This document shows positions 5,588-64,000 of a DNA stretch of 64,000 nucleotides, in pieces; position 1 is the stretch's first letter; each line of letters opens with the position of its first letter. This DNA is from Microbacterium sp. zg-B185. GTDB taxonomy: Bacteria; Actinomycetota; Actinomycetes; Actinomycetales; Microbacteriaceae. Location of the stretch: contig NZ_CP126739.1 in NCBI RefSeq assembly GCF_030246885.1, positions 2,790,001 to 2,854,000 on the forward strand, written 5' to 3'. The translations under genes and the position numbers were made by a program. Under the pieces are notes generated by a model that was not told the DNA's origin, did not search any database, and saw nothing but the letters and a program-made list of their open reading frames with translations.

Positions 5588-5659
5588 CCGGCGCGTCACC
5601 GCCAATGCAGACAGCCGTTTCATCCCTCGCCACACGACAACGAAGGAAGCAGGAGAACA

Positions 5660-6448: not shown

Positions 6449-6464
6449 TCGCTCACCACGACCC

Positions 6465-6502: not shown

Positions 6503-6593
6503 GCTCCACCGTCGCGGCACCGGAGTCGCGCGGAAACAACTGGTTCGCGGTCTTCGGCGCCGTCGTGGTGATTTGCAGCCGAACGGAGCCCGT

Positions 6594-7052: not shown

Positions 7053-7106
7053 GTCTGCTCCTCGTGAGACATGGCCGAGTTCTCCCGGCAGCAACCAGCC
7101 TCACAG

Positions 7107-7135
7107 CTGTATAGGTCAGCTACTGTCCTATACAG
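7107..7135. promoter_or_regulatory. inverted-repeat operator between VOC gene and WYL regulator
   Basis: CTGTATAGG (7107-7115) and CCTATACAG (7127-7135) form a perfect 9-bp inverted repeat with an 11-bp spacer, centred about 31 bp upstream of the regulator's ATG and about 69 bp upstream of the VOC gene's ATG. The centre-to-centre distance of the arms is 20 bp, about two helical turns. It is a good candidate site for the WYL regulator (inference). Confidence 0.65.
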
Positions 7136-7151
7136 AAACTACGATCGAGGG

Positions 7152-8126: not shown

Positions 8127-8561
8127 CCGTCCCGGCCTGCGGCGGTCGGTCGGGGCGATGCGGCGGGACGCGGGTACGTCACCCGGGACGTCTCGCCCGG
8201 AATCCGGGTTTCAGGCCGCCGGCGGTGGTGGTTACGTGCGAGTGCGCAGGATGGCTCGCACTCCCTGCCCGGGCGCGCAGATCGTCGGTGGCGAGGTTCC
8301 TCAGCGGTGCAAGCCCGCCTTGCGTCTGGACGCCGAGGAGCTCTCGGACCGTCTTGCGGGCCAGCGCCGTGGTTCAGCCCGAACGCGGTCGTCGGTGGTG
8401 GTCTTGACCACGGGGAAAGGCTGGAGGAGCCTATTGGCAGCTGCGATGACGATGGGGCACGCAACGGTGTTCCGGGAGGTCATGGCGGCCACCCCAGCCG
8501 GTCGCACGACGAGTGACGCCCGCCGAGCGACCGACGCGAAAGGTCGACCGGAGGAACACTC
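8127..8561. other. 435-bp stretch without a supported gene
   Basis: No frame shows recognisable motifs. On the minus strand a short in-frame stretch around 8280-8370 (RKTVRELLGVQTQGGL...NLATDDLRARAG) looks protein-like, but its frame breaks on both sides, so it may be decayed coding DNA. The last 20 bp hold the ribosome binding site of the ScyD/ScyE-type gene. Confidence 0.35.
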
Positions 8562-9638
8562 ATGACGACGAGGAGGACGCTGCGCGCGGGTACCGCGGTC
8601 GCAGCTCTGGCAGTCTCAATGCTGTTCGCCCCCACGGTGGCGAGCGCGACCACGCAGTCCGACGAGGAGAGGACAGGCGGCGGCCCCGTCGTGTCGCTCA
8701 TCGCATCGGGGATGCAGGGCACCATCGGCAGCACCATCGGCCCAGACGGAGCGCTTTACGTCGCCGAAGGCAAGGCCGGCCAGATAACACGCGTCGATGT
8801 GCGCACCGGCGAGAAGACCGCGTACGCGACCGGTCTGCCCATCACGGTGCTTCCGCTCGGCGGTGCGATCGACATCGCATTCGTCGGCCGCACGGCCTAC
8901 GTCCTCGTCACCACGGTCGGTGATGACGTCCCCGGCGACACGACCAACGACGTCGACGGCATCTACCGGGTCGACGACGCCGACAGCTTCACCGTGATCG
9001 CGGACATCGGCGAATGGTCCAAGCAGAACCCGCCACCACCGGACATCGACTTCTTCCTCGCGCGTGGAGTCCAATACGCGATGCAGCCCATCTGGGGCGG
9101 ATTCCTCGTCACCGATGGCCACCACAACCGGGTCGTCAAGGTGTCGATGTCCGGGGAGATCACCACGGTCGAGCAGTTCGCCAACATCGTGCCCACCGGA
9201 ATCACCGCGCTGGGACCGTTGGTGTTCATGGCCGAGGCCGGTCCGGTGCCGCACGATCCGTCGACCGGAAAGGTCGTCGCATTCGGGCTTTGGAACCCGG
9301 AGCCTCGGGATGTGGCATCCGGCTACAGCCTCATTACCGATGTCGCACTCGGTGCCTGCGGCCTCTACGCGGTGTCCCAGGGCGACTCCCCCGGCGTGGT
9401 GCCGGAAGGGTCGCCGGCACTGCCGGACAGCGGAGAGCTGCTGAAGGTCAACCACGACGGCACGTTCTCCGTCGTCGCCGACGGACTCGATCTGCCCACG
9501 TCGGTCGCCTTCGCGCGCGACACCGCCTACGTGCTCACTCTCAACGGCGAGGTCTGGAAGGTCGACGACGTCTCGAGCGCCGGCCAGCGCCATCGCTGGG
9601 CAGGCTGCTTCGGCAACGGCTATTTCGGAGCCTGGTGA
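8562..9638 (+). CDS. secreted ScyD/ScyE family beta-propeller protein
   Basis: A 358-aa exported protein. The signal peptide (about residues 1-30) has RRTLRAG, a hydrophobic core and an ASA-type cleavage site. The mature part resembles the ScyD/ScyE family: GPDGALYVAEGKAGQITRVD repeats, GIYRVDDADSFTVIADIGEW, the NPTGI-type strand (IVPTGITALG) and a final LTLNGEVWKV blade, consistent with a six-bladed propeller. The family is named after scytonemin-cluster proteins in cyanobacteria, but in actinobacteria its role is unknown. It is monocistronic, with a strong hairpin at 9663-9698 after it. Confidence 0.85.
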   Translation: MTTRRTLRAGTAVAALAVSMLFAPTVASATTQSDEERTGGGPVVSLIASGMQGTIGSTIGPDGALYVAEGKAGQITRVDVRTGEKTAYATGLPITVLPLGGAIDIAFVGRTAYVLVTTVGDDVPGDTTNDVDGIYRVDDADSFTVIADIGEWSKQNPPPPDIDFFLARGVQYAMQPIWGGFLVTDGHHNRVVKVSMSGEITTVEQFANIVPTGITALGPLVFMAEAGPVPHDPSTGKVVAFGLWNPEPRDVASGYSLITDVALGACGLYAVSQGDSPGVVPEGSPALPDSGELLKVNHDGTFSVVADGLDLPTSVAFARDTAYVLTLNGEVWKVDDVSSAGQRHRWAGCFGNGYFGAW

Positions 9639-9662
9639 TCGCATCCACCCGATGTGACCGGA

Positions 9663-9698
9663 GTCGGCCGAGGAGCACACTCGTGCTCTTCGGCCGAC
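9663..9698 (+). terminator. terminator hairpin after ScyD/ScyE-type gene
   Basis: GTCGGCCGAGGAGCAC (9663-9678) pairs over 16 bp, with one G-T pair, with GTGCTCTTCGGCCGAC (9683-9698) around the loop ACTC. It lies between convergent units and probably works on both strands. Confidence 0.7.
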
Positions 9699-9718
9699 CC
9701 GAATCCGATGTGCGGTGA

Positions 9719-9950
9719 TCAGCGACTGGAGTAGCCGCCGTCGATCGGCAGCGCGACGCCCGAGATCATGGCGGCCCCGTCGTTGAGCAGGAAGACGATG
9801 GCGGCGGCGATATCGTCCTCGGTCGCCCAGCGGTGCAGGGCATCGCCTCCAGGAAAGGCCCTTCGATCTCAGGACGACCCCAGTACCACGCCGACATCGA
9901 CGTCATCACCGCCGTCGGATTCACGCTGTTGACGCGGCTGCTGGGTGACC
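9719..9950 (-). pseudogene. C-terminal fragment of a short-chain dehydrogenase, frameshifted
   Basis: The minus strand encodes the end of an SDR oxidoreductase. One frame reads RVNSVNPTAVMTSMSAWYWG and on to GPFLEAMP. The next frame continues with LHRWATEDDIAAAIVFLLND and the closing IDGGYSSR before the stop at 9719. The switch falls in a CCC run near 9838 and looks like a one-base deletion. The cofactor-binding and catalytic Tyr-Lys parts are absent: upstream of about 9950 the homology stops where the next gene's leader begins. It is therefore a remnant. Confidence 0.75.
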
Positions 9951-10030
9951 GCCATCCCGCTCTCACGACGGGTGTACCGCCGTCGCCGCAGCGTTCACGG
10001 TCGCACGCCCGCAGACGCCGCGCGGGTGCG

Positions 10031-10126
10031 GCTGGCAGGATGGCCGCGTGCGGCAGGGAGCGGCTGGCAGGATGGCCGCGTGCGGCAGGGAGCGGCTGGC
10101 AGGATGGCCGCGTGCGGCAGGGAGCG
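10031..10126 (+). repeat. three perfect 32-bp tandem repeats over a translation start
   Basis: Three identical 32-bp units occupy 10031-10062, 10063-10094 and 10095-10126. Each unit contains AGGA followed 7 nt later by GTG, so it carries a complete translation-initiation site (GTGs at 10048, 10080 and 10112). Because 32 is not a multiple of 3, the three starts lie in three different frames; only the last is in frame with the phosphotransferase sequence. Confidence 0.95.
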
Positions 10127-10815
10127 GCGGGCCACGTACGGCTGGTGCAGCGGGAGGGCAGGACCCTCGTCCAGAAGCGCCTGGCGGATGTGGAACGCCA
10201 TGACACCGAAGTGCTCGCCCTGCGCGCCCTCGCCGGCACCGGCCTTCCGGTTCCCCAGGTCGTCGAGGTGCGGCCCGGTTCCATCCTGATGACGCACATG
10301 CCCGGGAATCGCCTGGACACGGGCGATGCGGACACGCGACGCGACCGCCTCCGGGCCTCGGCTGCGCTGATGCGTCGACTGCATGCGCTGCGGCCGCCCG
10401 CCGGACTGCCGCCCGCGCCGGACGACGAGCTGATCATCCGCCCGTATCGGGATGCCGGCGGCCCCCCGCTTCCGCTCGCCGTTGCGCCTGCGGCGGGCAG
10501 GGTGTTCTGCCACGGCGACTGGACGGACGGGAACCTGCTCGCCGTGAACGGCACCATCACAGCCATCGTCGACTGGGAGGCCGCTCACCTCGGAGACCCG
10601 ATCCGCGAGCTCTCGCGCGCAGCCTGGGCGGCTGGGGCGGAAGGACGCGCGGTCCTTGGATGTCATGGTCGCGGCGTACGCCGCCCGACCTGCCGTCCGT
10701 GCGGGCTTGGACGCCGATCCACGCGGTCGAACTCTGGCTCGGGTTCGCCCAGGCGTGCCCTCCCGCCTACCTCGCGCAGCTCACGACCGAGCTGCGGGAT
10801 TGGCCTTGCCCCTGA
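10112..10815 (+). pseudogene. aminoglycoside-phosphotransferase-like kinase, two frameshifts
   Basis: Remnant or misread gene of the APH/choline-kinase fold. From GTG 10112 the first frame gives the N-lobe (VRLVQREGRTLVQKRLADVE) and the catalytic loop FCHGDWTDGNLL, then the DFG-equivalent IVDWEAAHLGDP. Near 10650 the homology moves to a second frame (LDVMVAAYAARPAVRAG), and near 10710 to a third (IHAVELWLGFAQACPPAYLA), ending at the TGA at 10815. Full-length relatives are one frame of about 230 residues, so two single-base changes have occurred or were miscalled. The start region is triplicated (see the 32-bp repeat). Catalytic Asp and Asn are present. Substrate unknown. Confidence 0.75.
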
Positions 10816-10878
10816 CCGGACCGGTCCCGTCCTCCGGCCGGGCGTCCTGCGAGGAGGCGGCCGAGCTGTTCAGGAGCA

Positions 10879-12639
10879 TCATTTCGTCTGGTCATCACCG
10901 GCGTCCACGACCGGCGTGGATGGGGCGTCCTTCGCGGGTCCGACGCCGACAGGTATTCCGGCTTCGGGGTGGTTGGCATCGAACGCGGGGCGCTCGCTGC
11001 GGATCCGCGGGATCGAGGTGAAGTTGTGCCGCGGCGGCGGGCACGAGGTCGCCCACTCCAGCGACGCGCCATACCCCCACGGGTCGTTCACGGTCACCTT
11101 GGGCGCCTTGCGCGCAGTGATCCACACGTTGAACAGGAACGGGATCATCGACGCACCCAGGATCATCGCCCCGACCGTGGAGAGCTGATTCAGCCAGGTG
11201 AAATTGTCCTGTTCCGAGTAGTCCGCGTAGCGGCGCGGCATGCCGTCCACGCCCAGCCAGTGCTGGATCAGGAAGGTCATGTGGAAGCCGATGAACAGCA
11301 TCCAGAAGTGCACGTAGCCGATGCGTTCGTTCAGCATCTTGCCCGTGAACTTCGGCCACCAGAAGTAGAACCCGGCGAACATCGCGAACACCACGGTGCC
11401 GAACACGACGTAGTGGAAGTGCGCGACGACGAAGTAGGTGTCCGAGATGTGGAAATCCAGCGGCGGGGAGGCCAGGATCACACCGGTCAGACCACCGAAG
11501 ACGAACGAGACCAGGAAGCCCAGCGAGAACAGCATCGGCGTTTCGAAGGTGACCGAGCCGCGCCACATCGTGCCGATCCAGTTGAAGATCTTCACCCCGG
11601 TGGGCACCGCGATCAGCATCGTCATCAGCGCGAAGAACGGCAGCAGGACGGCACCGGTGACGTACATGTGGTGCGCCCACACCGCGACGGACAGCGCCGC
11701 GATCGCGATGGTGGCGTAGACGAGGGTCTTGTATCCGAAGATCGGCTTGCGGCTGAAGACCGGGAAGATCTCCGAGACGATGCCGAAGAACGGCAGCGCG
11801 ATGATGTACACCTCGGGGTGGCCGAAGAACCAGAACAGGTGCTGCCACAGCAGCACACCACCGTTCGCCGGGTCGTAGATGTGCGCTCCCAGGACCCGGT
11901 CGGCCGCGGCCGCCAGGATCGCCGCCGCCAGGACGGGGAAGGCGAGGAGGATCAGGATGCTGGTGACCAGCGTGTTCCAGGTGAAGATCGGCATCCGCCA
12001 CATCGTCATCCCGGGCGCGCGCATCGTGATGATCGTGGTGATGAAGTTCACCGCACCCAGGATCGTGCCGAAACCGCTCATGCCCAGGCCGAGCATCCAG
12101 AGATTGCCGCCGACACCGGGGGTGAACGTGGCATTCGCGAGCGGTTGATATGCGGTCCAGCCGAAGGATGCCGCCCCCTGCGGGGTGAGGAACCCGGACA
12201 CGGCGATGATCGAGCCGAACAGGAACAGCCAGAACGAGAACGCGTTCAGACGCGGGAACGCCACATCCGGCGCGCCGATCTGCAGCGGCATGATCGCATT
12301 GGCGAAGCCGAAGAAGAGCGGGGTCGCGAACATCAGCAGCATGATCGTGCCGTGCATCGTGAACAGCTGGTTGTACTGCTCCTTGGTCGGCACGATCTGC
12401 ATGCCCGGCTCGAACAGCTCGGCGCGGATGATCAGCGCCATCACGCCGCCCAGCATGAAGAACAGCACCGACGCGATCAGGTACATGTACCCGATCGTCT
12501 TGTGGTCCGTGGAAGTGATCCACTTGACGACGATGTTGCCCTTCTGCTCAGTGCGCGTGGCCCTGAGCAGCGCGGCTTGCCGAGGCGGGAGCGTGGTCGG
12601 GCGTGCTCCCTTCACCGCTGTCCGGGTGGAATCCGCCAT
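10879..12639 (-). CDS. ctaD: cytochrome c oxidase subunit I
   Basis: Catalytic subunit of the aa3-type cytochrome c oxidase, 586 aa. It binds heme a, heme a3 and CuB and reduces oxygen while pumping protons across the membrane. About 12 membrane segments are visible, with the CuB/heme motifs [15 protein letters not shown] and HHMYVTG and the heme-binding pair in [15 protein letters not shown] 12639 follows GGAGGAGGGAG. It stands alone: no ctaC, ctaE, ctaF or qcr genes are adjacent, so it is an orphan and probably second copy. A SURF1 assembly factor is encoded at 29855-30721. Confidence 0.97.
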
Positions 12640-50086: not shown

Positions 50087-50299
50087 ATGGGAATGACGAA
50101 CGAGTACCAGGTGACCGGCATGAGCTGCGGGCACTGCGAGTCGGCGGTGCGCGGCGAGGTCGGCAAGCTCGAGGGCGTGGAGCAGATCGAGGTGAGCGCG
50201 GCCGACGGCCGCCTCGTCATCGTCTCGACCGGCGCGCTCGACGATACCGCCGTACTGGCCGCCGTCGACGAGGCGGGCTACGAGGCCACCCGCATCTGA
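50087..50299 (+). CDS. copZ: copper chaperone, heavy-metal-associated domain
   Basis: A 70-aa single HMA domain protein with the metal site GMSCGHC (residues 11-17) in a beta-alpha-beta-beta-alpha-beta fold, ending EAGYEATRI. It binds Cu(I) in the cytoplasm and passes it to CopA. First gene of copZ-copA-csoR, preceded by a CsoR box; its stop overlaps the copA ATG (TGATG). Confidence 0.95.
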
Positions 50300-52641
50300 T
50301 GGATGCCGCTCTGGCCGCCGAGGACGGCGGCACACCCGCGCTCCCCCGCTCGCGCGTCGAGCTCGAGATCGGCGGGATGACCTGCGCGTCATGCGCGAAC
50401 CGCATCGAGAAGAAGCTGAACCGGCTCGAGGGCGTCACCGCCAGCGTCAACTACGCCACGGAGAAGGCGGTCGTCTCGACCGCCGCCGGCGTGGATCCCG
50501 CCGTGCTGATCGCCGAAGTCGAGAAGACCGGGTACACCGCGGCGCTCCCCCGCCCGCAGGCACCCGCGCAAGCCCCGCCCGAAGACCGCGAGCTGACCTC
50601 GCTCCGGCAGCGGCTGATCGGCGCGATCGTGCTGTCCGTGCCGGTGATCGCGCTGTCGATGATCCCCGCGCTGCAGTTCACCTACTGGCAGTGGCTCTCG
50701 CTGGCGCTGGCTGCCCCGGTCGTCGTCTGGGCCGCGTGGCCCTTCCACCGGGCCGCGTGGATCAACCTGCGTCACGGCGCCGCCACGATGGACACGCTGA
50801 TCTCGATCGGTGTCTCGGCGGCATTCCTGTGGTCGCTGTACGCGCTGTTCCTCGGCGATGCCGGCATGCCCGGCATGATGGAGGCCTTCGAGTGGACCGT
50901 GCAGCGCACCGACGGCGCCGGCAACATCTATCTCGAAGTCGCCGCCGGAGTGACGATGTTCGTCCTCGCCGGCCGGTACTTCGAACTGCGCTCCAAGCGC
51001 CGCGCCGGCGCCGCCCTGCGTGCGCTGCTCGAGCTGGGCGCGAAGGACGTCGCGGTCATCCGCGACGGTGTCGAAGGCCGGATCCCGATCTCCGCGCTGC
51101 GCGTCGGCGACGAGTTCGTGGTGCGACCGGGCGAGAAGATCGCCACGGACGGCGTGGTCGTCTCGGGGACATCGGCTGTGGACGCCTCGATGGTCACCGG
51201 CGAATCTGTGCCGGTCGAGGTGGGTGCCGGTGATGCCGTCGTGGGCGCCACCGTCAACGCGGGCGGGCGCCTGCACGTGCGGGCGACCCGGGTCGGGGAT
51301 GACACTCAGCTGGCGCAGATGGCACGGCTGGTCGAAGAGGCCCAGTCCGGCAAGGCCGACGTGCAGCGCCTCGCCGACCGCATCTCCGGCGTGTTCGTGC
51401 CGATCGTCCTGGTCATCTCCCTCGGCACCCTTGTCACCTGGCTGCTGCTGGGCAACCCGGTCGCCGCCGCGGTGACCGCCGCTGTGGCGGTCCTGATCAT
51501 CGCCTGCCCGTGCGCGCTCGGGTTGGCCACACCCACCGCGCTCCTGGTCGGCACCGGCCGGGGCGCTCAGCTCGGCATCCTGATCAAGGGACCGGAGGTG
51601 CTCGAATCCACCCGGATGGTCGACACGATCCTGCTCGACAAGACCGGCACCGTCACCACCGGGCGCATGGCGCTGGTCGCTGTGATCACGGCGCCGGGGA
51701 CCGACCGCACCGAGCTGCTGCGACTGGCCGGCGCGCTGGAGGATTCCTCTGAGCACCCGATCGGCCGGGCGATCGCCCTGGCCGCTGCCCGCGAGGCCGG
51801 CGAGCTGCCCACCGTGGAGTCGTTCCAGGCCACCGCGGGAGTGGGCGTCTCGGGCGTCGTCGACGGACATGCGGTCGTGGTGGGTCGCCAATCCCTGCTC
51901 GCGGAGTGGGCCATCCACCCGGACGCCGCGCTCGTCGCGGACAAGGACCGGGCCGAGGCGGAGGGGTCCTCCGCCGTGTTCGTGGCGTGGGACGGCCACG
52001 GCCGCGGGGTGCTCGTCGTGGCGGACCGCGTCAAGGCCACCAGCCGCGAAGCCGTCGCGCAGTTCCGGCGGCTCGGGCTGCGGCCGGTGCTGCTGACCGG
52101 GGACAACGAGACCGTCGCCCGCCGCATCGCGGATGAGGTGGGCATCGAGCGCGTCATCGCGGGCGTTCTGCCGGACCAGAAGGTCTCGGTCGTGCGCGAG
52201 CTGCAGGCCGAGGGCCGAGTCGTCGCGATGGTCGGCGACGGTGTCAACGACGCCGCCGCACTCGCGCAGGCCGACCTGGGTCTGGCCATGGGCACGGGCA
52301 CGGATGCCGCCATCGAAGCATCCGACATCACCCTGGTCCGCGGGGATCTGCGCAGCGCCGCCGACGCTATCCGGCTGTCGCGCCGCACGTTCGGCACCAT
52401 CCGCGGCAACCTGTTCTGGGCCTTCGCCTACAACGTCGCGGCCATTCCCCTGGCGGCGATGGGGCTGCTCAATCCGATGATCGCGGGAGCGGCGATGGCG
52501 TTCTCGAGCGTCTTCGTCGTCGGCAACAGTCTGCGCCTGCGCCGCTTCCGGAGCCTGTCGAAGGACGCACCGCCGAACGTTCCGGTCGGCTCGCGCGCGC
52601 TGCCGACCGTTATGGATTCCCACGCCAAGGAGCTGTCATGA
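50299..52641 (+). CDS. copA: copper-exporting P1B-type ATPase
   Basis: A 780-aa Cu(I) efflux ATPase. The N-terminal HMA domain has GMTCASC (residues 26-32). Eight membrane helices follow. Helix 6 carries the ion-binding CPC in [19 protein letters not shown] (about residues 403-405). The phosphorylation site DKTGTVTTG is near residue 448, HP-locus EHPIGRAI near 485, and the hinge [10 protein letters not shown] near 646. The last about 30 residues are basic and variable. It overlaps copZ by 1 nt and csoR by 4 nt. Confidence 0.97.
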
Positions 52642-52934
52642 CCGACGTCCACACCCAGCACGGGTACATCACCGACAAAGAGAAGTACCTCAACCGCATG
52701 CGCCGCATCGAGGGTCAGGCCCGCGGCATCCACAAGATGGTCGAGGACGAGAAGTACTGCATCGACATCCTGACCCAGATCAGCGCGCTGACCAGCGCGC
52801 TGGAGGCCGTCGCGATCGGCCTGCTCGATGACCATCTGCGGCACTGCGTCGTGGATGCCGCACGCCTCGGAGGCGACGAGGCGGACGCCAAGATCTCCGA
52901 GGCGACGGCCGCGATCGCGCGGTTGGTGCGGTAA
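52638..52934 (+). CDS. csoR: CsoR-family copper-sensing repressor
   Basis: A 98-aa four-helix repressor (DUF156). The start [20 protein letters not shown] leads into [20 protein letters not shown], with the Cu(I) ligands C41, H66 and C70 (KYCIDIL and DDHLRHC) of the CsoR C-H-C set. Cu(I) binding releases DNA. It overlaps the copA stop (ATGA), so the operon is autoregulated via the box at 50049. Confidence 0.96.
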
Positions 52935-54923: not shown

Positions 54924-56840
54924 ATGACAGAGGTGTCATATTTTCTGGCCGTCGATGTGGGGACGAGTCGGATAGCAGCAGCTACCGCACGCGTCGCGGC
55001 AGACGGAAGCATCGTCACGGCGCCGTTCGCGCTGGGCCGCAAGAGCGACAGTGTCGCCACGGTCGTATTCGTCGGAGACGGCGGGGAACTGTCCTTCGGC
55101 GATGCCGCCGAGCGGCGCGGAGTCACCCAGCCCGACCGGCTGATCCGCGAGTTCAAGCGCAGCATCGGCGACGAGGTTCCGATCGTCGTCGGCGACCGAT
55201 CACTGCCGGCCGAGCAGCTGTATGCCAAGACGGTCGCCTCGATCGTCGCGCTGGTCACCGAGCGCGAGGGACGGCGGCCCGAAGCCGTGTCGCTCACGCA
55301 CCCCACCGCGTGGGGCGGCCACCGCATCGAGCTGATCCGCTCCGCCCTGCACCGCGAGGGCGTCGGCGAGGTCGAGCTGATCACCGAGCCCGAGGCCGCA
55401 GCGCGGCACTACGAGGCATCCCGCGCGCTGGAGATGGGCGAGACCCTCGCGGTCTACGACCTCGGCGGCGGCACATTCGACTCCGTCATCCTCCGCAAGG
55501 AGATCGACGGCTCCTTCGCCCTCGTGGGCGAGCCGGTCGGCATCGACAACCTCGGCGGCGTGGACTTCGACGACGCCGTGATGCGCCACGTCGTGACCGC
55601 CGCGGGTCTGGATGTCGGGTCGCTCGATATGACCGACCCCGCCATCCGCCTCTCGCTGTCCCAGCTGCGCCGCGAATCCGTGGACGCCAAAGAAGCCCTC
55701 TCCTTCGACTCCGAGGCCACCGTCCCGGTCGTCGTCCCCCCGACGCACACCAGCGTGCGACTCACGCGGTCCGAGTTCGAGGACATGATCAGCGGGTCGC
55801 TGGACAAGACGATGGACGCGCTGGACGACGCGCTCGAGGGCGCCAGTCTCGAGCCGGAAGCGCTCGAGTCGATCCTCCTGATCGGCGGCTCGTCCCGCAT
55901 CCCGTTCGTCGCGCAGCGTCTGTCCGAGCGGTTCGACCGGCCGATCGCGATCGACGCGGACCCGAAGGCGGCCATCGCCCTGGGTGCCGCCCGCACGGCA
56001 CTGATCCGCCTCAACGACAAGCACCTCGCCTTGGCCGGTGGCACTGCGCTGGCGCTGATCGGCGACAGCGCGGCCGGATCCGAACTCGCCCTGCTCGAGG
56101 CGGACACAGCGGTCGTGGACGGCGCACCCAACTTCGTCTCGCCGGTGAGCAAGGCACGCAAGTCCTCGCCGTTCGTTCTGGGCGGTGCTGCCCTGACCAT
56201 CGCGGCGGCGATCGTCTTCGCGAGCACGATGACCGCGGGCTCCGGCACCGCCGACCGCTCGCCGTCCCCGACGACATCCACCGCCGCCCCCACGACGCCG
56301 GCGATCGCCGAGCCGGTCGTGCCGGGCGCACCGGTCGTCGAAGCGGCACCGGTGATCAACGACGACGCGCCCCGGCGGTCCACCGGAGCGAACCCGAATC
56401 CGCGTCGCAGCGCCACGCCGGTGGCCCCGCCCGCCACGCAGACCACGGCCAAGCCGACCACTCCGCCGAGCTCGAGTTCCAACCCGCCGGCGAACAACCC
56501 GTCCAACCCGCCGGCGAACAACGACCCGTCCAACCCGCCGGCGAACAACGAAAATCCGACGGACCCGTCCAACCCGCCCACGGACCCGTCCAACCCGCCG
56601 ACCGACCCGTCCAACCCGCCCACGGACCCGTCCGACCCGCCGACCGACCCCACGGACCCGCCGACCGACCCCACGGACCCGCCGGTTGATCCACCGGTAG
56701 ATCCGCCGGTCGATCCGCCGGTCGATCCGCCGGTCGAAGCTGACCCGGTGGTGGAACCGACGACGGCTCCTGATCCGGAACCGGCGCCGCCCGAAACCCC
56801 AGCCCCCACTGGTAGCCCGAGTCCCGACATCATCACCTGA
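54924..56840 (+). CDS. membrane-anchored Hsp70-like protein with Pro/Thr/Asp-rich tail
   Basis: A 638-aa protein. Residues 1 to about 375 form an Hsp70/actin-like ATPase: phosphate-1 loop LAVDVGTSRIAAATA, phosphate-2 LAVYDLGGGTFDSVILR, adenosine motif LLIGGSSRIPFVAQRL. The usual substrate-binding domain is missing. After a short linker there is one membrane helix (about 417-437, FVLGGAALTIAAAIVFAST), then about 200 low-complexity residues with NPPTDPS and DPPVDPP repeats, probably outside the cell. ATG 54924 is preferred over 54909. First gene of a run with an AAA-LuxR regulator and IniB-like protein, so it may sense or transmit an envelope signal (inference). Confidence 0.88.
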   Translation: MTEVSYFLAVDVGTSRIAAATARVAADGSIVTAPFALGRKSDSVATVVFVGDGGELSFGDAAERRGVTQPDRLIREFKRSIGDEVPIVVGDRSLPAEQLYAKTVASIVALVTEREGRRPEAVSLTHPTAWGGHRIELIRSALHREGVGEVELITEPEAAARHYEASRALEMGETLAVYDLGGGTFDSVILRKEIDGSFALVGEPVGIDNLGGVDFDDAVMRHVVTAAGLDVGSLDMTDPAIRLSLSQLRRESVDAKEALSFDSEATVPVVVPPTHTSVRLTRSEFEDMISGSLDKTMDALDDALEGASLEPEALESILLIGGSSRIPFVAQRLSERFDRPIAIDADPKAAIALGAARTALIRLNDKHLALAGGTALALIGDSAAGSELALLEADTAVVDGAPNFVSPVSKARKSSPFVLGGAALTIAAAIVFASTMTAGSGTADRSPSPTTSTAAPTTPAIAEPVVPGAPVVEAAPVINDDAPRRSTGANPNPRRSATPVAPPATQTTAKPTTPPSSSSNPPANNPSNPPANNDPSNPPANNENPTDPSNPPTDPSNPPTDPSNPPTDPSDPPTDPTDPPTDPTDPPVDPPVDPPVDPPVDPPVEADPVVEPTTAPDPEPAPPETPAPTGSPSPDIIT

Positions 56841-56848
56841 ACCTGACG

Positions 56849-59407
56849 ATGTCAACCGTTCAGTCTGATGAGAATGTGCTGTCGGATGCCGAGGCCCTGT
56901 TCATCTGGGAGCGACAAGCACGTCCGGTGATGGAGTCGATCGCCTCGGCGGGCGACAGCCCCGCGCGGGCGTTCGTGGTGGGCAACGCCGGATCGGGCAA
57001 GTCGACGATGCTGCGCGAACTGCACCGACTCCTGGCCGACCAGAACGCCGATCCGGTCCTGTTCGGCGATGCGGTGGACGTGGCCCGCGTGCCCTCGGCG
57101 CACGTGCTGCTGGTCGATGACCTCCACCTGCTCGATTCCGCGCAGGTCGCCGCCATCCTGGAGCGCTCCGCGGATCCCGAAGCGGCGTTGGTCGTCGCGA
57201 GCCGTCCTTGGCCGCGGGCGGACGCCCTGACCAGCATCTCCCGGAGCCTGGAGCGCAGCCGACCCGCGATCGTGCTGGGTCACGTCTCGCGCTCCGATGT
57301 GCTGACGTATCTCCGCGCCGCGGATCAGGTCATCGCGGGTTCCTGCGTCGACGACATCCTGAGGTTCACCGGCGGCGTGTCCTGGCTCGTCTCCGAGGCG
57401 CTCGCGCTGCACGATGCGCGCGACTGCGCCGACGACAGCGGCCACCGTGCGGTCAAACGGGCCGTGGAGGATCGGATCGCCTACCGGCTGGACACGATCC
57501 CGGTCGAGCTGCGGCTCGAGATCGAAGCGCTGTGCGTCTCGCCGGCCGGTCACGACCGTCTGCTGGCCGAGCGGGACGACATCATCGCACAGGGGTATGC
57601 CGAGGGTCTGCTGATGCGCAACGGCCAGCCGGTGCCGCTGGTGCGGGCGGCCGTGCGCTCCATCATTCCGGTCACTCGGCTGATCGACCTGAGCGCGAAC
57701 GTCGCCGACGGCCTTGCCCTGTCCGCGGCGGCGGGAGATTCGAGCTACCGCAGCTGGGTCGGCGGCATCCAGGATCCGGCCATCGGCGCGGCCCTGGTGG
57801 AGCATGCCGATCGGGCGCTGGACGGCGACCCGCGCCGCGCGTTCGAGCTGTATGCGGGTGCACTGGACTGCGGCCTGAATCCGACCGGGCTCATCGGCCG
57901 GCAGGCGCAGGCCGCGTGGGCGTCCGGCAACCCCGACCTGGCCGCCTCGCTCCTGGACGGCGTGCCCACGACCGGGACCATCCCGGACAGCGACCGCGTC
58001 GCCGACACCTCCGCGGCCATCTGGTCCATGCGCGGAATGATGCGCATGAGCGACACCGTCTACCGTTCGCTGCCCCCGCAGAGCGGCGAGTCCAGGGCGC
58101 GCGCAACGATCGCCGCCTTCGGCGCGGGGCGGATGCCGGAGGCTGCCGAATCCGCACAGGCCTCCGGGCTGCCCTCCACCCTCCGCGTCGCGCTGGAGCT
58201 GCTGGATCGCGGCCTGCGCACGTCGATGACCAACGACGGCACGGAGTCCGCGATCGCCGATCTGGTGCGCGCGTCCGAGATGTACACCTCGGCGGCCACG
58301 TCCGCTCCGATCCCCGAACTGCCCGCCGTCATCGCCGCGATCGTGGCGATGAACGTCGGCGACCTGGACGTCGCGCACGACGTCATCGAGAACGCGATCC
58401 AGGGCGATCAGGGCGGCGAATGGGCACGGGTGCGTCTGCTGCTGTGGCGCTCCTGGATCGCCGTCCAGAAGGCCCGGCCGGCTGAGGCGCGGGATGCGCT
58501 GACGCATGCCCTGGAGACGTCCTCGACGCGTTCGACCCGCGACACGCTGCTGGCCCAGGCGATCCGCGTCGCGATCGCCCGGCGCTACGAGGACTCCGCA
58601 GCGCTGGAGGCCGCCTGGAGCGCGGCCCGCGACAGCATCCTGCACACCGAGGTCGATCTGTACTCGCTGCTGCCCCTGGCCGAGCTGGTCACCGCCGCTG
58701 CCCGCGTGGATGACCCGGAGCGGCTGCGGCCGCATTTCGTGCGCGGGCTCGGCATCGTCGAACAGCTGGGCTCTCCCCCGGTGTGGTCCACACATCTGCA
58801 CTGGGCGGGGATCCAGCACGGCATCCTGCTCAATCTGCCCGACGCGCTCGAACCGCACGCGCGCGCCCTCGTGTCGGCGACCGCCCACAGTCCGGTCGCT
58901 GCCGTGATGGCGCAGGCCGGCCGCGTGTGGACGGCGACCTTGGCGGGATCCGTGGATGCCGATGCCGTCGAGGCCGCCGCTCACGGCCTGGCCTCGGCGG
59001 GGCTGGGCTGGGACGGCGCGCGGCTGGCCGGACACGGCGCGAACCGCACCACCGACCGGCGGATCTCTGCGCGGCTGCTCTCGTGCGCACGCGAACTGCA
59101 CCCTCAGGAGGTCACGCGCAAGGCCCCGCGCGCGGACGAGGAATCCACGCCGGGGACACCGGCCGGCCCCTCGGGATTCACGCTGAGCGAGCGCGAGCGC
59201 GACGTCGCGCGGCTCGTGCTGCAGGGCAAGACGTACGCCGAGATCGGGGAGACGATCTTCATCTCGCCGCGCACGGCCGAACACCACATCGCCCACATCC
59301 GACGCCGCCTCGGGGCGACGTCCCGGTCTGATCTCATCGCGAAACTGCGCGTGGTCGTCGATCAAGGTGAGGGAACCGGGGAGCGCACCACTGGGCTGAA
59401 CCCATGA
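56849..59407 (+). CDS. large AAA-ATPase LuxR-family regulator
   Basis: An 852-aa regulator of the LAL/MalT-like type. Walker A is VVGNAGSGKST (residues 43-53), Walker B HVLLVDDLHLL (85-95), followed by sensor-like ALVVASRPWPRADAL. The middle (about 300-750) is alpha-helical, Ala/Leu-rich, TPR-like. The C-terminal LuxR HTH (about 779-838) reads LSERERDVARLVLQGKTYAE and SPRTAEHHIAHIRRRL. It starts 8 bp after the Hsp70-like gene, so they are co-transcribed. In M. tuberculosis a regulator of this kind (IniR) lies beside iniBAC, which supports control of the linked IniB and dynamin genes here (inference). Confidence 0.93.
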   Translation: MSTVQSDENVLSDAEALFIWERQARPVMESIASAGDSPARAFVVGNAGSGKSTMLRELHRLLADQNADPVLFGDAVDVARVPSAHVLLVDDLHLLDSAQVAAILERSADPEAALVVASRPWPRADALTSISRSLERSRPAIVLGHVSRSDVLTYLRAADQVIAGSCVDDILRFTGGVSWLVSEALALHDARDCADDSGHRAVKRAVEDRIAYRLDTIPVELRLEIEALCVSPAGHDRLLAERDDIIAQGYAEGLLMRNGQPVPLVRAAVRSIIPVTRLIDLSANVADGLALSAAAGDSSYRSWVGGIQDPAIGAALVEHADRALDGDPRRAFELYAGALDCGLNPTGLIGRQAQAAWASGNPDLAASLLDGVPTTGTIPDSDRVADTSAAIWSMRGMMRMSDTVYRSLPPQSGESRARATIAAFGAGRMPEAAESAQASGLPSTLRVALELLDRGLRTSMTNDGTESAIADLVRASEMYTSAATSAPIPELPAVIAAIVAMNVGDLDVAHDVIENAIQGDQGGEWARVRLLLWRSWIAVQKARPAEARDALTHALETSSTRSTRDTLLAQAIRVAIARRYEDSAALEAAWSAARDSILHTEVDLYSLLPLAELVTAAARVDDPERLRPHFVRGLGIVEQLGSPPVWSTHLHWAGIQHGILLNLPDALEPHARALVSATAHSPVAAVMAQAGRVWTATLAGSVDADAVEAAAHGLASAGLGWDGARLAGHGANRTTDRRISARLLSCARELHPQEVTRKAPRADEESTPGTPAGPSGFTLSERERDVARLVLQGKTYAEIGETIFISPRTAEHHIAHIRRRLGATSRSDLIAKLRVVVDQGEGTGERTTGLNP

Positions 59408-59450
59408 ACCCCGTACTGAACCCCCATCGCATCGGGGGAACCCCCGATGC
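59397..59450 (+). promoter_or_regulatory. TGAACCC direct repeats and hairpin before the IniB-like gene
   Basis: TGAACCC occurs at 59397, 59405 and 59417, overlapping the end of the LuxR gene. A 10-bp stem (GCATCGGGGG/CCCCCGATGC, 59429-59450) with a two-base centre follows, containing GGGGGAA as in the leader at 54885 and 54910. It may be a regulator site or a terminator ahead of the IniB-like gene's own promoter; an AT-rich stretch at 59460-59505 follows. Confidence 0.45.
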
Positions 59451-59510
59451 CGCGAAAGGTAATTTCCAGAACAATATGAATAGCTTTATCGGACATATAG
59501 GAGTCGAGTC

Positions 59511-60188
59511 ATGAGTACACCAGTTGCGACCATCGCAGACGCGTTGATCGAATTCATTCTGAGCCTGCTTCGTGACCCGTCGGCGGTGGAAGAATTCGAC
59601 GCGAACCCCACGGGGATGCTGGCGAGCAACGGCCTGAGCGACGTGTGCGCGGACGACGTGCGGGCCGTTGCCCCCGTGGTCATCGACCGCCCCGAGGTCG
59701 ACCCCCGCCCGACGCCCGCCCCGCCGAAGCCGTACCCGAGCGATGTCGTCAACGAGATCAAGACCATCACGAACAACTTCGTGACGATCGACAACCGGGC
59801 CACCATCGTGGACCAGTCGGTCAACCAGAACATCTGGACCGAGGGCGGCGACGTCACGCAGATCTTCGACAACGAAGCCATCGTCGCATCGGGCGACCAG
59901 GCCGTCGCCGCCGGCGACGACGCGCTGGTGGACAACTCCGACACCGACGTGGCGGTCGGCGACGTGTCGATCGGCAACGAGACCACCGACGTCGACATCG
60001 ACGGTTCGTTCAACGACGACTCGACCGAGACCGACGACTCGGTCGACATGGATGCGGACGAGTCCTTCAACGACGACTCGACGAACACGGACGTGAGCGT
60101 CGACGTCGAGGACTCGTTCAACGATTACACCGAGACAGCAGTGGACACCGACGTGGACGTCGAGTTCGCCACTGAGGAGACGCTGTAA
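59511..60188 (+). CDS. IniB N-terminal-domain protein with acidic repeats
   Basis: A 225-aa protein. The first about 60 residues match the IniB N-terminal domain: ALIEFILSLLRDPSAVEEFD and ANPTGMLASNGLSDVCADDV, then Val-Ala-Pro-Val. The centre (about 80-150) has Asn/Gln-rich beta-type sequence (VDQSVNQNIWTEGGDVTQIF). The tail (about 150-225) is strongly acidic, with the repeat SFNDDST occurring twice and a third variant SFNDYTE. No signal peptide or membrane helix is seen. ATG 59511 follows AGGAG. The mycobacterial IniB is a Gly-rich protein of the isoniazid-inducible operon; here the Gly-rich part is replaced by Asp-rich sequence. Confidence 0.88.
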   Translation: MSTPVATIADALIEFILSLLRDPSAVEEFDANPTGMLASNGLSDVCADDVRAVAPVVIDRPEVDPRPTPAPPKPYPSDVVNEIKTITNNFVTIDNRATIVDQSVNQNIWTEGGDVTQIFDNEAIVASGDQAVAAGDDALVDNSDTDVAVGDVSIGNETTDVDIDGSFNDDSTETDDSVDMDADESFNDDSTNTDVSVDVEDSFNDYTETAVDTDVDVEFATEETL

Positions 60189-60197
60189 GCTCAGCCC

Positions 60198-60869
60198 GTG
60201 TCTGACGAGCAGAAATCACTTCCGAATCCGCGCGTCCCCGCTGTCCAGGGGCGCGCGGATTCGCGTGGGCCGGCTCCGCAGGGACGCCCGGAATCGCCGC
60301 GTCGCGAAGCACCCGCACGACCGCCGTTGTCCAGCCCGAACGCTCCGCCCGTGGTCGCGAAAGTCACCCCGCCGGCATCCGTGCGCTTCGCTCAGCTGTT
60401 CTGGATCCTGAGCTTCGCCGTCGGCGGATTCGCGGTCGTCTACTTCTTCATCATCCGCGAGAAGCAGCTGCCGCTGATCGGTGACGTGGTGCGCAGCGTG
60501 ACCGAGGGTCGCAGCGACGAGATCTACACGACCGCCGCCGACATCATCTTCTGGTCGATCTTCGGCACCATGCTGGCGATCCTGCTCATCCAGATCACGC
60601 TGATGGTCTCGTTCATGGGGCGACGGCCCAACGTGCGGTGGTGGCAGATGGGAACCGTGCTGCTGCAGGCGATCGTCGTGCTGCTATCGCTGGAGCTTGT
60701 CGCCGGCGGGAGCGACGGCGAGTTCCTCCGTCAGCTCCTGGTCATCCAGCTCGGTCTGGCGCTGCTCGGACTCCTCATCAGCACGATGCCCCCCGCCCTC
60801 GCCTGGTCCGCCCGTGGCGTCGACGTCCGCCGCGGTCCCCTCGGAGAAGCCGGCAGTCCCGAGCTCTGA
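60198..60869 (+). CDS. four-helix membrane protein of the dynamin/IniB locus
   Basis: A 223-aa protein from GTG 60198, starting 9 bp after the IniB-like stop. The N-terminal about 60 residues are Pro/Arg-rich and cytoplasmic-looking. Four hydrophobic segments follow at about residues 65-87, 112-137, 146-165 and 172-195. The motif ADIIFWSIFGTMLAILLIQI lies in helix 2. No family recognised. Its last 186 bp overlap the C-terminal coding sequence of the dynamin-like gene on the other strand. Position suggests a membrane partner of the locus (inference). Confidence 0.8.
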   Translation: MSDEQKSLPNPRVPAVQGRADSRGPAPQGRPESPRREAPARPPLSSPNAPPVVAKVTPPASVRFAQLFWILSFAVGGFAVVYFFIIREKQLPLIGDVVRSVTEGRSDEIYTTAADIIFWSIFGTMLAILLIQITLMVSFMGRRPNVRWWQMGTVLLQAIVVLLSLELVAGGSDGEFLRQLLVIQLGLALLGLLISTMPPALAWSARGVDVRRGPLGEAGSPEL

Positions 60870-62321
60870 GGCCATCTCCTCCAGGCTGCGGATCACGACG
60901 CGGCACACCTCGGTGGTGGCGCGCTCGGTGAGCGGAGACTGCGCCAGGGTGCGCCAGTGGATCAGCTGGTCATCGATCAGCTGACGCAGCGCACTCGGGC
61001 CGGCACCCTCCTCAGCGGCGAGCCGCGAGGTGATCGGCGTCCCCTTGCCTCCGACGAGCCGCTCCGCCAGTACCGTGTTCTCCTTCGAGAGCGGCAGGCC
61101 GGAAGCGCGCATCCTCGCCAGCAGCGAGAGCTCACGCAGGGTGTGCGCGGTGGCGTAGATGCGCTCGATGCCGGCCACCAAGTCCCCGGTCTCCGCGCGC
61201 GGGTGGTCGTGGACGAGCTTGTCCAGCCCGTCCAGGACGCCCCGCACCTTGAGTGCGTCCGCCCGGGTGCGGAACTGGTTGCGCACGACCTGGTTCAGTT
61301 CGTTCAGCCCGCTCTGCTGGATCAGCCGTTCGGCCAGCTGCGACGAATCCGACGCGCCGCCGCGGACCAGGGTCGTCGCCAGTCGGACGCCGAAGATCCC
61401 GAAGCGTCCGAGCAGGTCACGGCGCGCGTCCTGGCTGACGGTGGTCACGTCGGTGGGGCGCACGAAGCGATCGGCGGAGACGAGCAGGCGATCGCGGGAG
61501 GCCTTGTCCAGCCGCGCGAGCTCGCGGAACGCTGCGAACTCCTTCTCACGCAGGGTGCGCGCGCCCTCCGCGAGCAGCCCCGCCACCGGCGTCACGCCCA
61601 GCGCCAGCGAGCCCAGGTCGCCGTCTCGCTCGTACCGCCGGGCGACGCGGCTCGCCGACAGGAGCGAGTCGATGCGACCCGAACCGACCTCGTCCGCCCG
61701 TGACAGCACGCCCACCGCGTTGACCGTCTGCGAGACGCCCGCGGCGGTGTCGCGAAAGGCCTCCAGGAACTTGACGTCCGACGCGTGCAGGTGGCGGAGC
61801 AGGTACACGATCGCGTCCGCCGACGAGGGAGACTCGTCGGGTGTCAGAAAGGTGGTGGAGCGCGCCGAGGTCTCCTGCGAGAGCGAGGCGATGCCGGGCG
61901 TATCGATGAGGATCACCGACTGCAGCCCCGAGGAGGGCCAGCCCACGTCGATGAACTTGACGTCCTCGGGAGGGATGCCGTCCAGCGTCAGCACCAGCTT
62001 GCCGCGCTCGCGCTTGACCGGCATGCGGCGCGGCTCACCTTCGCGAGGATGCAGGGTCACGTACGGCGTCGCGGAGTACCGGTACCAGGTGACGACCCGG
62101 GTGCACTCGCCGGCGTCAGTCGGCGCGATCTGCTCGCCCAGCATCGCGTTCAGCAGGGTCGACTTGCCGGCCTTGACCATGCCGGCCAGGGCCAGCCGCA
62201 ACGGCTCCCGCAGGCGTCGGTCCAGGTCCTGCAGGACCTTGGTCGCCGCGGGATCGTCCTGGTAGACAGCGAAAGCGGACGCGATGAGATCGCTCGCGTC
62301 GTCGCGCACCGTTCTGCTCAC
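60684..62321 (-). CDS. dynamin-like GTPase (IniC-like)
   Basis: A 545-aa bacterial dynamin-family GTPase. G1 is GMVKAGKSTLLNAML (residues 47-61), G3 VILIDTPGIASLSQ, G4 AVGVLSRADEVGSG. Helical stalk sequence fills about 250-500. There is no obvious membrane helix, matching the IniC-type partner. GTG 62321 overlaps the stop of the upstream dynamin by 4 nt. The last about 62 residues (after CRVVIRSLEEMASELGTAGF) are acidic, Gly/Glu-rich and lie antisense to the four-helix membrane gene. It likely works with the upstream paralogue as a heteromeric membrane-remodelling pair. Confidence 0.93.
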   Translation of the reverse strand: MSRTVRDDASDLIASAFAVYQDDPAATKVLQDLDRRLREPLRLALAGMVKAGKSTLLNAMLGEQIAPTDAGECTRVVTWYRYSATPYVTLHPREGEPRRMPVKRERGKLVLTLDGIPPEDVKFIDVGWPSSGLQSVILIDTPGIASLSQETSARSTTFLTPDESPSSADAIVYLLRHLHASDVKFLEAFRDTAAGVSQTVNAVGVLSRADEVGSGRIDSLLSASRVARRYERDGDLGSLALGVTPVAGLLAEGARTLREKEFAAFRELARLDKASRDRLLVSADRFVRPTDVTTVSQDARRDLLGRFGIFGVRLATTLVRGGASDSSQLAERLIQQSGLNELNQVVRNQFRTRADALKVRGVLDGLDKLVHDHPRAETGDLVAGIERIYATAHTLRELSLLARMRASGLPLSKENTVLAERLVGGKGTPITSRLAAEEGAGPSALRQLIDDQLIHWRTLAQSPLTERATTEVCRVVIRSLEEMASELGTAGFSEGTAADVDATGGPGEGGGHRADEESEQRQTELDDQELTEELAVAPAGDKLQR

Positions 62322-64000
62322 CGGCTGATTGCCTCCCTGCGCACCGGCGGCAGCACGGGGATCTCGGAGCGCAGCGTCTCGAGCTGCTTGATCTGAGTCC
62401 GCAGCTGCGTCATCCGCTGGTCCGTGTCCGCGGCGAACGTGCCGGCAGCCTGCTTGGCGGCGAGCACCGACTCCGACAGCGAGCGGTGGAACTCGTCCGC
62501 GATGCCGCCGAAGTGGTCGCGCGCGGAACGCTGCACCAGGCGGAGCCGGTCCTTCAGCTGCTTGCTGACCTGGAAGGTGACCTCGTCGATGTACCGACGG
62601 ACCAGGTTCTTCGCCTCGAACTGCCGGCGCGAGAGCCGCGAGCCCATGTCCTCGCGGTACGCGCGACGCCCCACCAGGATGCCGGCGAGCAGCGAGAGCG
62701 GGTTGATCAGGCTCAGGCCGATCAGTCCGGTGGCCAGGCCCACCATCAGCACACCACCGTACGAGCCGCGGACACCGATGTAGATCTTCTCGCCCGCGCC
62801 CATCTGGCCGGCGTTCAGCTTCGCGATGCCTTCGACCGGGTCCAGGACACCCTCGGTGTTGCCGACCTCGATGAGGGGCAGCTCGTTGCCGCCCTCCGCG
62901 AACAGCTCGGCGACCTCTTCGGACAGCCACCGCGAGCGCTCGTCGGTCCACACGAACGTCTCCGAGATGGCGGCCGCGACGCGCTGGTCGAGCCACTCGG
63001 TGATCTGGTCCCAGATCGGGCCAGGATCGCCCTCGTCGATGGATTTCTCCGCCTCGCGCTGCACCTTGCGCAGACGGTCACGCAGGTCGTGCTCCATATC
63101 GGAGATGAGGTCGGCCACGCCGTCGCTCAGGGTGACCTGCCACCGGGAGGAGCGGCCGCGGAACTCGTCGGCCCGCGCCTTCGCATCCTCCAGCTGCGCG
63201 ATCATCCGGGGGGTGTCCTCGGGATGCTCCAGCGCGTTCAGTTCGGAGCGCAGCGACATCGTCAGCTGATCGACGACCGAGGCCAGGTCGTGCACGGCGG
63301 CACGCTCGTGGATGACCTCGGCGCGCTCCAGCACCTCCCGGCGCAGGTGCGCGACGAGCGCCGGGAACCCGGACTCGTCGTTGAGTTCGCGATCCTGCAG
63401 CTCCGCCGCCATCATCCGAAGGTCGCTGGAGACCGTGAACATCGGCACCTCGCCGACCTCGCCCAGGTGCGAGCGGTCGAGGCGCTCGATCTGCCGCCAG
63501 TCCGGGTAGAGGTCGGTCTTGGCCAGCACGGCCGCGACGTTCGGGGACACGCGCATCGCGTGCTTGAGGAACTGGATCTCGGGCTCGGTGTACTCCTGCG
63601 AGGCATCCGAGACGAGCAGCACGGCGTGCGCCGACGAGAGGGCGGCCAGAGTGGTCAGCGAGTTCGACGAGTCCAGTCCCCCGACGCCGGGTGAGTCGAC
63701 GATCCGCAGACCGCCTTTGAGGATCTCGCGGGGCAGCAGCACTTCGGCCGACACGATCTGGCGCTCGTTGCCCGGGTTGCCCTTCTCCGAGACGAGATCA
63801 CCCAGATCCTCGAGCGCGATCTCCTGGCGCTGGATGACGCCGGGACCGTCGGACTCGTGATGGATCAGGATCGCCGCAGAGGCCGTCTCGGCGTATCCGA
63901 CCGACGTCGGCACGCTCGTGGCCACATCGTCATCGACCGGGCACGCGGGTGCGTTGACGAGCGCGTTGATGAGCTTGCTCTTGCCCTTCTTGAACTCGCC
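62318..64000 (-). CDS. dynamin-like GTPase (IniA-like), truncated by window edge
   Basis: At least 560 residues, open to base 64000, so the first residues are missing. G1 is GEFKKGKSKLINAL at the very edge, G3 LRIVDSPGVGGLDSS, G4 AVLAKTDLYPDW. A membrane-inserting segment (about 63 nt either side of 62720: GSYGGVLMVGLATGLIGLSL and NPLSLLAGILVGR) lies in the stalk, as in IniA, and coiled regions flank it. The downstream dynamin overlaps its stop (GTGA). In mycobacteria IniA mediates membrane fission-type activity. Convergent with the Hsp70-LuxR-IniB run. Confidence 0.93.
   Translation of the reverse strand, partial: GEFKKGKSKLINALVNAPACPVDDDVATSVPTSVGYAETASAAILIHHESDGPGVIQRQEIALEDLGDLVSEKGNPGNERQIVSAEVLLPREILKGGLRIVDSPGVGGLDSSNSLTTLAALSSAHAVLLVSDASQEYTEPEIQFLKHAMRVSPNVAAVLAKTDLYPDWRQIERLDRSHLGEVGEVPMFTVSSDLRMMAAELQDRELNDESGFPALVAHLRREVLERAEVIHERAAVHDLASVVDQLTMSLRSELNALEHPEDTPRMIAQLEDAKARADEFRGRSSRWQVTLSDGVADLISDMEHDLRDRLRKVQREAEKSIDEGDPGPIWDQITEWLDQRVAAAISETFVWTDERSRWLSEEVAELFAEGGNELPLIEVGNTEGVLDPVEGIAKLNAGQMGAGEKIYIGVRGSYGGVLMVGLATGLIGLSLINPLSLLAGILVGRRAYREDMGSRLSRRQFEAKNLVRRYIDEVTFQVSKQLKDRLRLVQRSARDHFGGIADEFHRSLSESVLAAKQAAGTFAADTDQRMTQLRTQIKQLETLRSEIPVLPPVRREAISR

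Follow-up and report, generated by a model that had tools for sequence, protein, structure and literature searches.

The closest described relative of the module reported here is the mycobacterial IniR-iniBAC system. Of the mycobacterial operons, iniBAC shows the strongest induction by isoniazid and ethambutol; it is activated by IniR, which forms multimers, and the authors' conclusion was that the periplasm is the site of sensing (PMC5760070). A single sentence of that paper places a dnaK-like gene next to iniR in M. smegmatis, and IniA of M. smegmatis remodels and cuts membrane using GTP (PMC6715688). GTPases and Hsp70 proteins, some of the latter lacking the peptide-binding domain, are also combined in the GTPase-HSP70-tubulin conflict systems (eLife 2020, PMC7159879). 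The present analysis concerns a stretch of 64,000 nucleotides of Microbacterium sp. zg-B185 (contig NZ_CP126739.1, positions 2,790,001 to 2,854,000 of the forward strand), referred to as the window, in which a membrane-anchored Hsp70 protein and an IniR-like activator are encoded beside an IniB-like protein, a four-helix membrane protein (TM4) and two dynamins.

The gene content and the conservation of this module are well supported, and the ATPase sites of Hsp70 and IniR were found to be lost reciprocally among its relatives, an observation that looks new. The module is read here as an inducible response to envelope damage that extends the mycobacterial IniR-iniBAC plan and in which Hsp70 would be the transmembrane sensor; this reading was given a probability of about 0.5, and its mechanism is one that we infer.

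The module shares with the mycobacterial system (NF038181, NF038175, PDB 6j72) an IniR-like activator, IniB-N proteins, the coupled start and stop of IniA and IniC, and CCCC-type repeats 5' of iniB. It differs in the addition of TM4, in Hsp70 as a standard part, in an IniR below the equivalog cut-off, and in its occurrence in Microbacterium- and Arthrobacter-type actinobacteria. In contrast to the conflict systems, no tubulin match was found among the module proteins scanned, and the words 'dynamin' and 'iniA' are absent from the main text of PMC7159879. Among the titles and abstract openings of the open-access matches listed, no description was found of the module outside mycobacteria, of an Hsp70 partner of IniR or of TM4.

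Gene content of the module

All five gene types claimed in the earlier note were found where it had placed them. The module comprises the following features (window coordinates).

54924-56840, plus strand: hsp70; Hsp70-type nucleotide-binding domain (NBD) at about residues 1-370, one transmembrane (TM) segment at 417-435, Pro-rich tail predicted outside
56849-59407, plus strand: iniR-like gene; STAND ATPase with Walker A motif GNAGSGKS and a C-terminal LuxR helix-turn-helix (HTH)
59429-59450, no strand assigned: candidate regulator box GCATCGGGG-N4-CCCCGATGC, 82 nt 5' of iniB1
59511-60188, plus strand: iniB1; IniB N-terminal domain, then Asp/Asn-rich repeats resembling the second IniB-like protein
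60198-60869, plus strand: TM4; four-TM protein with a Pro-rich N-terminus, without Pfam or NCBIfam family
60684-62321, minus strand: IniC-like dynamin gene; 186-bp overlap with TM4 at the 3' end
62318-64000, minus strand: IniA-like dynamin gene, continuing past the window to about 64228
64455-65429, minus strand, in the coordinate frame of the window and outside it: second iniB-like gene (iniB2), upstream of iniA

The end of the window cuts the module inside iniA, and the module extends to iniB2. The start of iniC, a GTG overlapping the IniA stop, was placed by eye.

The Hsp70 protein matched Pfam HSP70 at 3.6e-36, the match ending at residue 369. As in DnaK/Hsp70 chaperones, whose NBDs are the nearest solved structures, the NBD (about residues 1-370) is complete in the predicted structure, with predicted local distance difference test (pLDDT) scores mostly >90, and the catalytic residues K78, E155, D179 and T184 are present. 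The protein differs from these chaperones in lacking a substrate-binding domain (no folded region was predicted beyond residue 379), in being membrane-anchored with a tail predicted outside, and in belonging to a partly degenerate family. DnaK and the module copy are the only Hsp70 genes of this genome. Since basic residues precede the TM segment and a tail of 203 residues (31% Pro) follows it, the NBD should lie in the cytoplasm and the tail outside. A TM segment after the NBD was found in 67 of the 76 Hsp70 relatives longer than 440 residues within the 91 loci described below; their median tail was 216 residues, zeros included. The part after the NBD varies by lineage, with Pro-rich, Thr/Pro-rich (mycobacterial-type) or other tails behind the TM segment. 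A cytoplasmic ATP-using domain followed by a TM segment and a variable outer part would amount to a receptor-type build, although not in every relative. Receptor kinases with extracytoplasmic sensors, such as PknD, likewise consist of a cytoplasmic ATP-using domain, one TM segment and a variable outer part. The comparison is one of working principle only, as the module has an Hsp70 fold instead of a kinase.

In four loci (L089:5436-7892, L099, L100 and L104) the Hsp70 NBD is fused to a propeller or WD40 domain. The Vgb/YncE-type propeller of L089 is Pfam-supported and is the only such case behind a TM segment; in L104, WD40 repeats follow a borderline TM segment. In three mycobacterial-type loci (L107, L112, L113) a further degenerate Hsp70 gene lies 3' of iniR, giving the order Hsp70-IniR-Hsp70. 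Hsp70-domain proteins are expanded in some actinobacteria, as indicated for example by 18 PF00012 matches in one genome (G218).

The window regulator has an N-terminal P-loop ATPase and a C-terminal LuxR HTH and is encoded beside an iniB gene. It matched Pfam GerE at 8.4e-14; its AAA matches in Pfam remained below their cut-offs, the Walker A motif being present. As its match to the NCBIfam model IniR (NF038181; 1.6e-110) scored 371 bits and did not reach the equivalog cut-off of 750, it is classed from its sequence as an IniR homologue only. Both IniR proteins of mycobacterial-type loci that were tested exceeded this cut-off. The iniR-like gene starts 8 nt past the hsp70 stop in the window; the median gap is 5.5 nt, and it is 30 nt or less in 65 of 78 loci. 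One locus (L178) contains a 1359-aa open reading frame joining Hsp70 and IniR. It was rejected, by eye, as proof of contact between the two, because the join looks like a frameshift and would place IniR outside the cell. The iniB1 product matched the IniB N-terminal model NF038175 with 75 bits (cut-off 40), and the second IniB-like protein, which resembles it, had no match in Pfam or PADLOC, the two libraries against which it was scanned.

For TM4, four long helices and shorter ones were predicted (mean pLDDT 86.5). It had no Pfam match at the cut-off and no NCBIfam match, and comparison of its fold with the PDB gave nothing at E <=0.001. Database relatives of TM4, at least 92 proteins, are unnamed, 'hypothetical' or 'uncharacterized', except two among the matches listed that are labelled cytochrome c oxidase subunit IV. 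The two dynamins matched Dynamin_N at 8.7e-12 and 4.2e-18. The IniA-like protein shows full-length homology to IniA of iniBAC, and its best solved structure was M. smegmatis IniA (PDB 6j72; 6e-128, residues 36-614). TM4 was convergent to IniC in all 84 loci carrying both, with overlapping 3' ends in 69 and an overlap of at least 50 bp in 53. As the last invariant IniC residue in a nine-sequence alignment is S475 of 541, the overlapping IniC tail is poorly conserved; the overlap was therefore set aside as a regulatory feature and is treated as probable compact packing.

Conservation, layouts and the iniB promoter box

In a draw of 120 genomes of the family, TM4, IniC and Hsp70 were each matched in 11 genomes and IniR in 9, at E cut-offs of 1e-3 for TM4, 1e-10 for IniC, 1e-45 for Hsp70 and 1e-30 for IniR. 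All four occurred in the same nine genomes, the extra matches being weak or divergent. The module genes were close together in eight of these; in the ninth (G044) they lie on two contigs, each ending inside IniA. A wider set of 91 related loci consisted of the best 80 of 553 relatives from an alignment search with IniA and 11 survey loci; the 80 named loci are near the window and not a random sample, since they were the best-ranked. Hsp70, IniR, IniC and TM4 were found together in 75 of the 91 loci. In 40 of these, from Arthrobacter and relatives, Hsp70-IniR-IniB-IniA-IniC form an operon with TM4 convergent to it (layout A); the other 35 have the arrangement of the window (layout M). The two facing halves described in the earlier note are thus a feature of layout M and not of Arthrobacter and its relatives. 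Twelve of the 16 incomplete loci are cut by contig ends. TM4 is missing in L160, L181, L186 and L178, the last having Hsp70 and IniR in a single reading frame. The earlier note would have given up its module had the Hsp70-like and four-helix genes not been conserved beside the dynamins; they are.

At the level of the class, IniA was found in 35 of 246 genomes, and a non-DnaK Hsp70 gene lay within 6 kb of it in 27 of the 35. In G175, G198, G259 and G349 the distance was 11-15 kb, the stretch having been placed to take in an Hsp70 already seen, and in G136, G150, G235 and G298 no non-DnaK Hsp70 gene was present within the fetched stretch around IniA. DnaK genes were taken out of these counts by judgement. 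Hsp70 lies directly 5' of IniR in seven of eight mycobacterial-type loci of this survey, and a dnaK-like gene adjoins iniR in M. smegmatis (PMC5760070), so that the Hsp70-like component cannot be placed outside the mycobacterial set, as the earlier note had done. Strong TM4 matches in the class draw were confined to 3 of 246 genomes, all of the window's own genus, with five further weak matches; TM4 genes are also present in Arthrobacter, Georgenia and Phycicoccus loci. A plasmid search with IniA returned one match only, on a 2.66-Mb Nocardia replicon. Two further loci, L045 (G100; 4940-10561) and L046 (G020; 5962-11426), have a divergent dynamin-Hsp70-dynamin arrangement with no IniR in the stretch, followed on the opposite strand by genes for several low-complexity proteins.

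In the window's genus the module acts like a cassette that is either present or absent at one fixed site. Of 396 genomes of the order, 24 carried IniC, among them 6 of the 18 listed for the window's own genus. In G000 and G265 the module is flanked by groES and a THUMP-like methyltransferase gene. In all four module-free genomes examined, out of 12 of the genus (G106, G255, G285 and G355), these two genes are adjacent. They are also adjacent in G304, with the module on a different contig. Both flanking genes were present in 21 of 37 layout-M loci, groES only in 4 and neither in 12, some of these at contig ends. Elsewhere in the window (50299-52934), a copper-type P-ATPase gene precedes and overlaps a CsoR-like regulator gene, both named by eye.

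The candidate box GCATCGGGG-N4-CCCCGATGC is a perfect inverted repeat with a single perfect copy in the 3.57-Mb genome, the next best having 2 mismatches; the iniB2 promoter of the same genome carries a version with 4 mismatches. Allowing up to 5 mismatches, it was found upstream of 67% of layout-A iniB (n=46), 71% of iniB2 (n=28) and 73% of iniB1 genes (n=37), in a sample in which many loci are close relatives and 8 of 36 iniB2 regions were omitted as too short. Shuffled iniB upstream regions gave 6-9%. Upstream of hsp70, iniA and layout-A TM4 the values were 4-7%, near their own shuffles (2-6%). With a weight matrix built from 21 iniB1 sites, hits above the 99th shuffle percentile were obtained for 52% of the layout-A iniB regions, for 46% of the iniB2 regions and for 0-3% of the control sets. 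The presence of the box upstream of all three Micrococcales iniB promoter classes, and rarely of hsp70, iniA or layout-A TM4, looks new. Because the box is common to the iniB promoters, iniB1-TM4 and iniB2-iniA-iniC are probably controlled by one regulator, which by analogy with mycobacteria would be IniR. Co-induction of the two halves, to which the earlier note tied its reading, is indirectly supported by this common box. In the mycobacterial-type loci, CCCCTA/TAGGGG repeats occur 5' of the first iniB in 8 of 8 cases (three repeats in seven, two in L111), compared with a mean of 0.1-0.2 in shuffles. Of 35 layout-M loci, 15 have a different dyad, GGCACTC/GAGTGCC, 5' of hsp70 (counted as exact GCACT/GGCAC). 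It is not obvious in the window; it resembles the CIRCE (HrcA) element and presumably belongs to the neighbouring groES.

Reciprocal loss of ATPase sites

Among 92 loci with both genes, 37 lacked the P-loop of IniR, through deletion of the domain or a change in the motif, and 25 lacked at least one of the Hsp70 catalytic residues K78, E155, D179 and T184. Both were lost only in L138, whose IniR is broken into two fragments. After L121, L138, L160, L169 and L086 had been dropped for broken, split or short genes, the remaining 87 loci showed 33 P-loop losses, 22 Hsp70 losses and no locus with both. On the IniA tree these correspond to 7 and 9 changes, respectively; when the losses were distributed over this tree at random, p was 0.015-0.06. 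For a second locus set the prediction was fixed beforehand, and its search carried no information on these residues; its 9 new intact pairs comprised five P-loop losses, one Hsp70 loss and none with both. In a further 20 dynamin loci, whose stretches contain no full IniR, Hsp70 was catalytic throughout. Altogether, no working P-loop IniR was present in the stretch of 58 of 116 loci, all 58 of which had a catalytic Hsp70; in the other 58, with a P-loop IniR, Hsp70 was dead in 23. No locus lacked both, about 10 Hsp70 losses were counted by parsimony, and the tree-randomised p for the 116 loci was 2.5e-5 (1 of 40,000 draws) to 6e-4.

All trees were FastTree trees with long-branch warnings. L118 (K to R only) was scored as catalytic, L111 was counted though its Hsp70 does not adjoin IniR, and L214, whose IniR of 630 aa is below the 640-aa limit of the first set, was kept in the second. 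L087 was not counted (dead Hsp70 at a contig end, IniR out of sight), nor were the extra dead Hsp70 genes of L107, L112, L113 and L114. The 21 order-survey loci comprised four repeats of named loci, the nine intact pairs, four loci without IniR in the stretch, L218-L220 with IniR cut by a contig end, and L227 with dynamins only. L096-L098, with weak LuxR-type matches (27-38 bits), were scored as without IniR, and L082, L090, L094, L095, L108 and L109, whose stretches contain dynamins and no such Hsp70, were not in the test. For the 20 added loci, IniR may lie elsewhere in the genome, and distant Hsp70s may do other work.

Proposed mechanism and alternatives

In the envelope-damage response proposed here, the Hsp70 tail, Pro-rich in this genome and of other kinds elsewhere, would sit in the cell wall, and the ATPase domain would report inside. 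Hsp70 and IniR would act as one nucleotide-driven switch for which either ATPase suffices. Activated IniR would bind the boxes 5' of iniB1 and iniB2, so that IniB1-TM4 and IniB2-IniA-IniC would be produced together; IniA and IniC would remodel or cut damaged membrane, TM4 would probably dock or restrain the dynamins, and IniB would coat or scaffold. The topology, the sensing, the contact between Hsp70 and IniR, the recognition of the box by IniR and the roles of TM4 and IniB are what we infer. That the Hsp70 receptor and the STAND activator share a single ATP switch, either ATPase being dispensable and never both, which fires a dynamin repair operon in many actinobacteria, is put forward tentatively, with somewhat less confidence than the envelope-damage response as a whole.

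Several observations weigh against this reading. The best p value for reciprocal loss comes from the 20-locus extension, which was added after the pattern had been seen; for the 96 strict Hsp70-IniR pairs of both sets p was 0.004-0.11, and an independent-pairs test was not significant, at most three pairs being informative and none of them having lost both sites. A single residue accounts for some of the P-loop losses (K to R in L089, L187, L222 and L223; T/S to R in L180), and ATP binding may persist in these IniRs. The dyad box was scored on its discovery data in related loci and was not seen in mycobacterial-type loci, where the CCCCTAA repeat region is mostly common to the divergent hsp70. 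The PQQ propellers of the Hsp70s in L099 and L100 (L100:10009) have no TM segment predicted ahead of them, so that not all relatives are receptor-shaped. As the relevant passage of PMC5760070 names a dnaK-like gene for M. smegmatis alone, IniR may not always need one. Finally, 20 survey dynamin loci have Hsp70 and no full IniR in the fetched stretch, and Hsp70 may therefore serve the dynamins directly. The main doubt is whether Hsp70 acts on IniR, on the dynamins or on both.

Hsc70 acts on the clathrin coat. Likewise, the module Hsp70 could be a membrane-tethered ATPase that assembles or disassembles an IniA/IniC coat, its place beside iniR being a matter of operon convenience. Besides the 20 loci just mentioned, the dynamin-Hsp70-dynamin order in G100 and G020 and the order IniC-IniA-Hsp70 in G213, with a gap of 14 nt, favor a dynamin partner, and because of such groups without IniR a direct link between Hsp70 and dynamins keeps weight. 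Overall we consider this role unlikely, however, since the substrate-binding domain is absent from the predicted model and the Hsp70 catalytic site was lost in about 10 lineages, a P-loop IniR being present in each counted case.

For LeoA/LeoBC-type systems, resealing or sacrifice of the membrane after phage attack has been proposed. The patchy presence of the module (6 of the 18 own-genus genomes listed), the empty sites and the similarity to PADLOC models, which come without cut-off (IniA: LeoBC 2.1e-18, LeoA 1.5e-14; IniC: LeoA 1.2e-7, LeoBC 8.7e-4), would suit an accessory anti-phage membrane-surveillance module whose dynamins act in this way. This appears improbable, as the other five module proteins yielded a single PADLOC match, between the regulator HTH and a model of a CARF protein (4.6e-5), groES on the window-side flank is a housekeeping gene, the IniA protein had no match in a phage collection, and mycobacterial iniBAC answers to cell-wall drugs (PMC5760070). 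The inducible membrane-remodelling or envelope-damage module of the earlier note thus agrees with the IniR and IniA literature (PMC5760070, PMC6715688), but the phage defence that it also considered is not supported beyond the similarity of the dynamins to LeoA/LeoBC. That the genes are functionally separate neighbors kept together by inheritance of a compact cassette is very improbable: presence or absence at one site and the opposite strands of the layout-M halves, which therefore can have no common transcript, would fit, but the same set occurs in two rearranged layouts across several genera, with TM4 always convergent to IniC, boxes common to the iniB promoters and reciprocal ATPase loss.

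For the question of how IniR learns of damage outside the membrane, the preferred reading of an envelope-damage response names one candidate transmembrane protein and one candidate operator. To our knowledge, Microbacterium- and Arthrobacter-type actinobacteria have no mycolic acids. Judging from the genera that carry the module, the range of the system extends beyond mycolic-acid envelopes. A common switch, if that is what the reciprocal loss reflects, would give the Hsp70 fold a new function.

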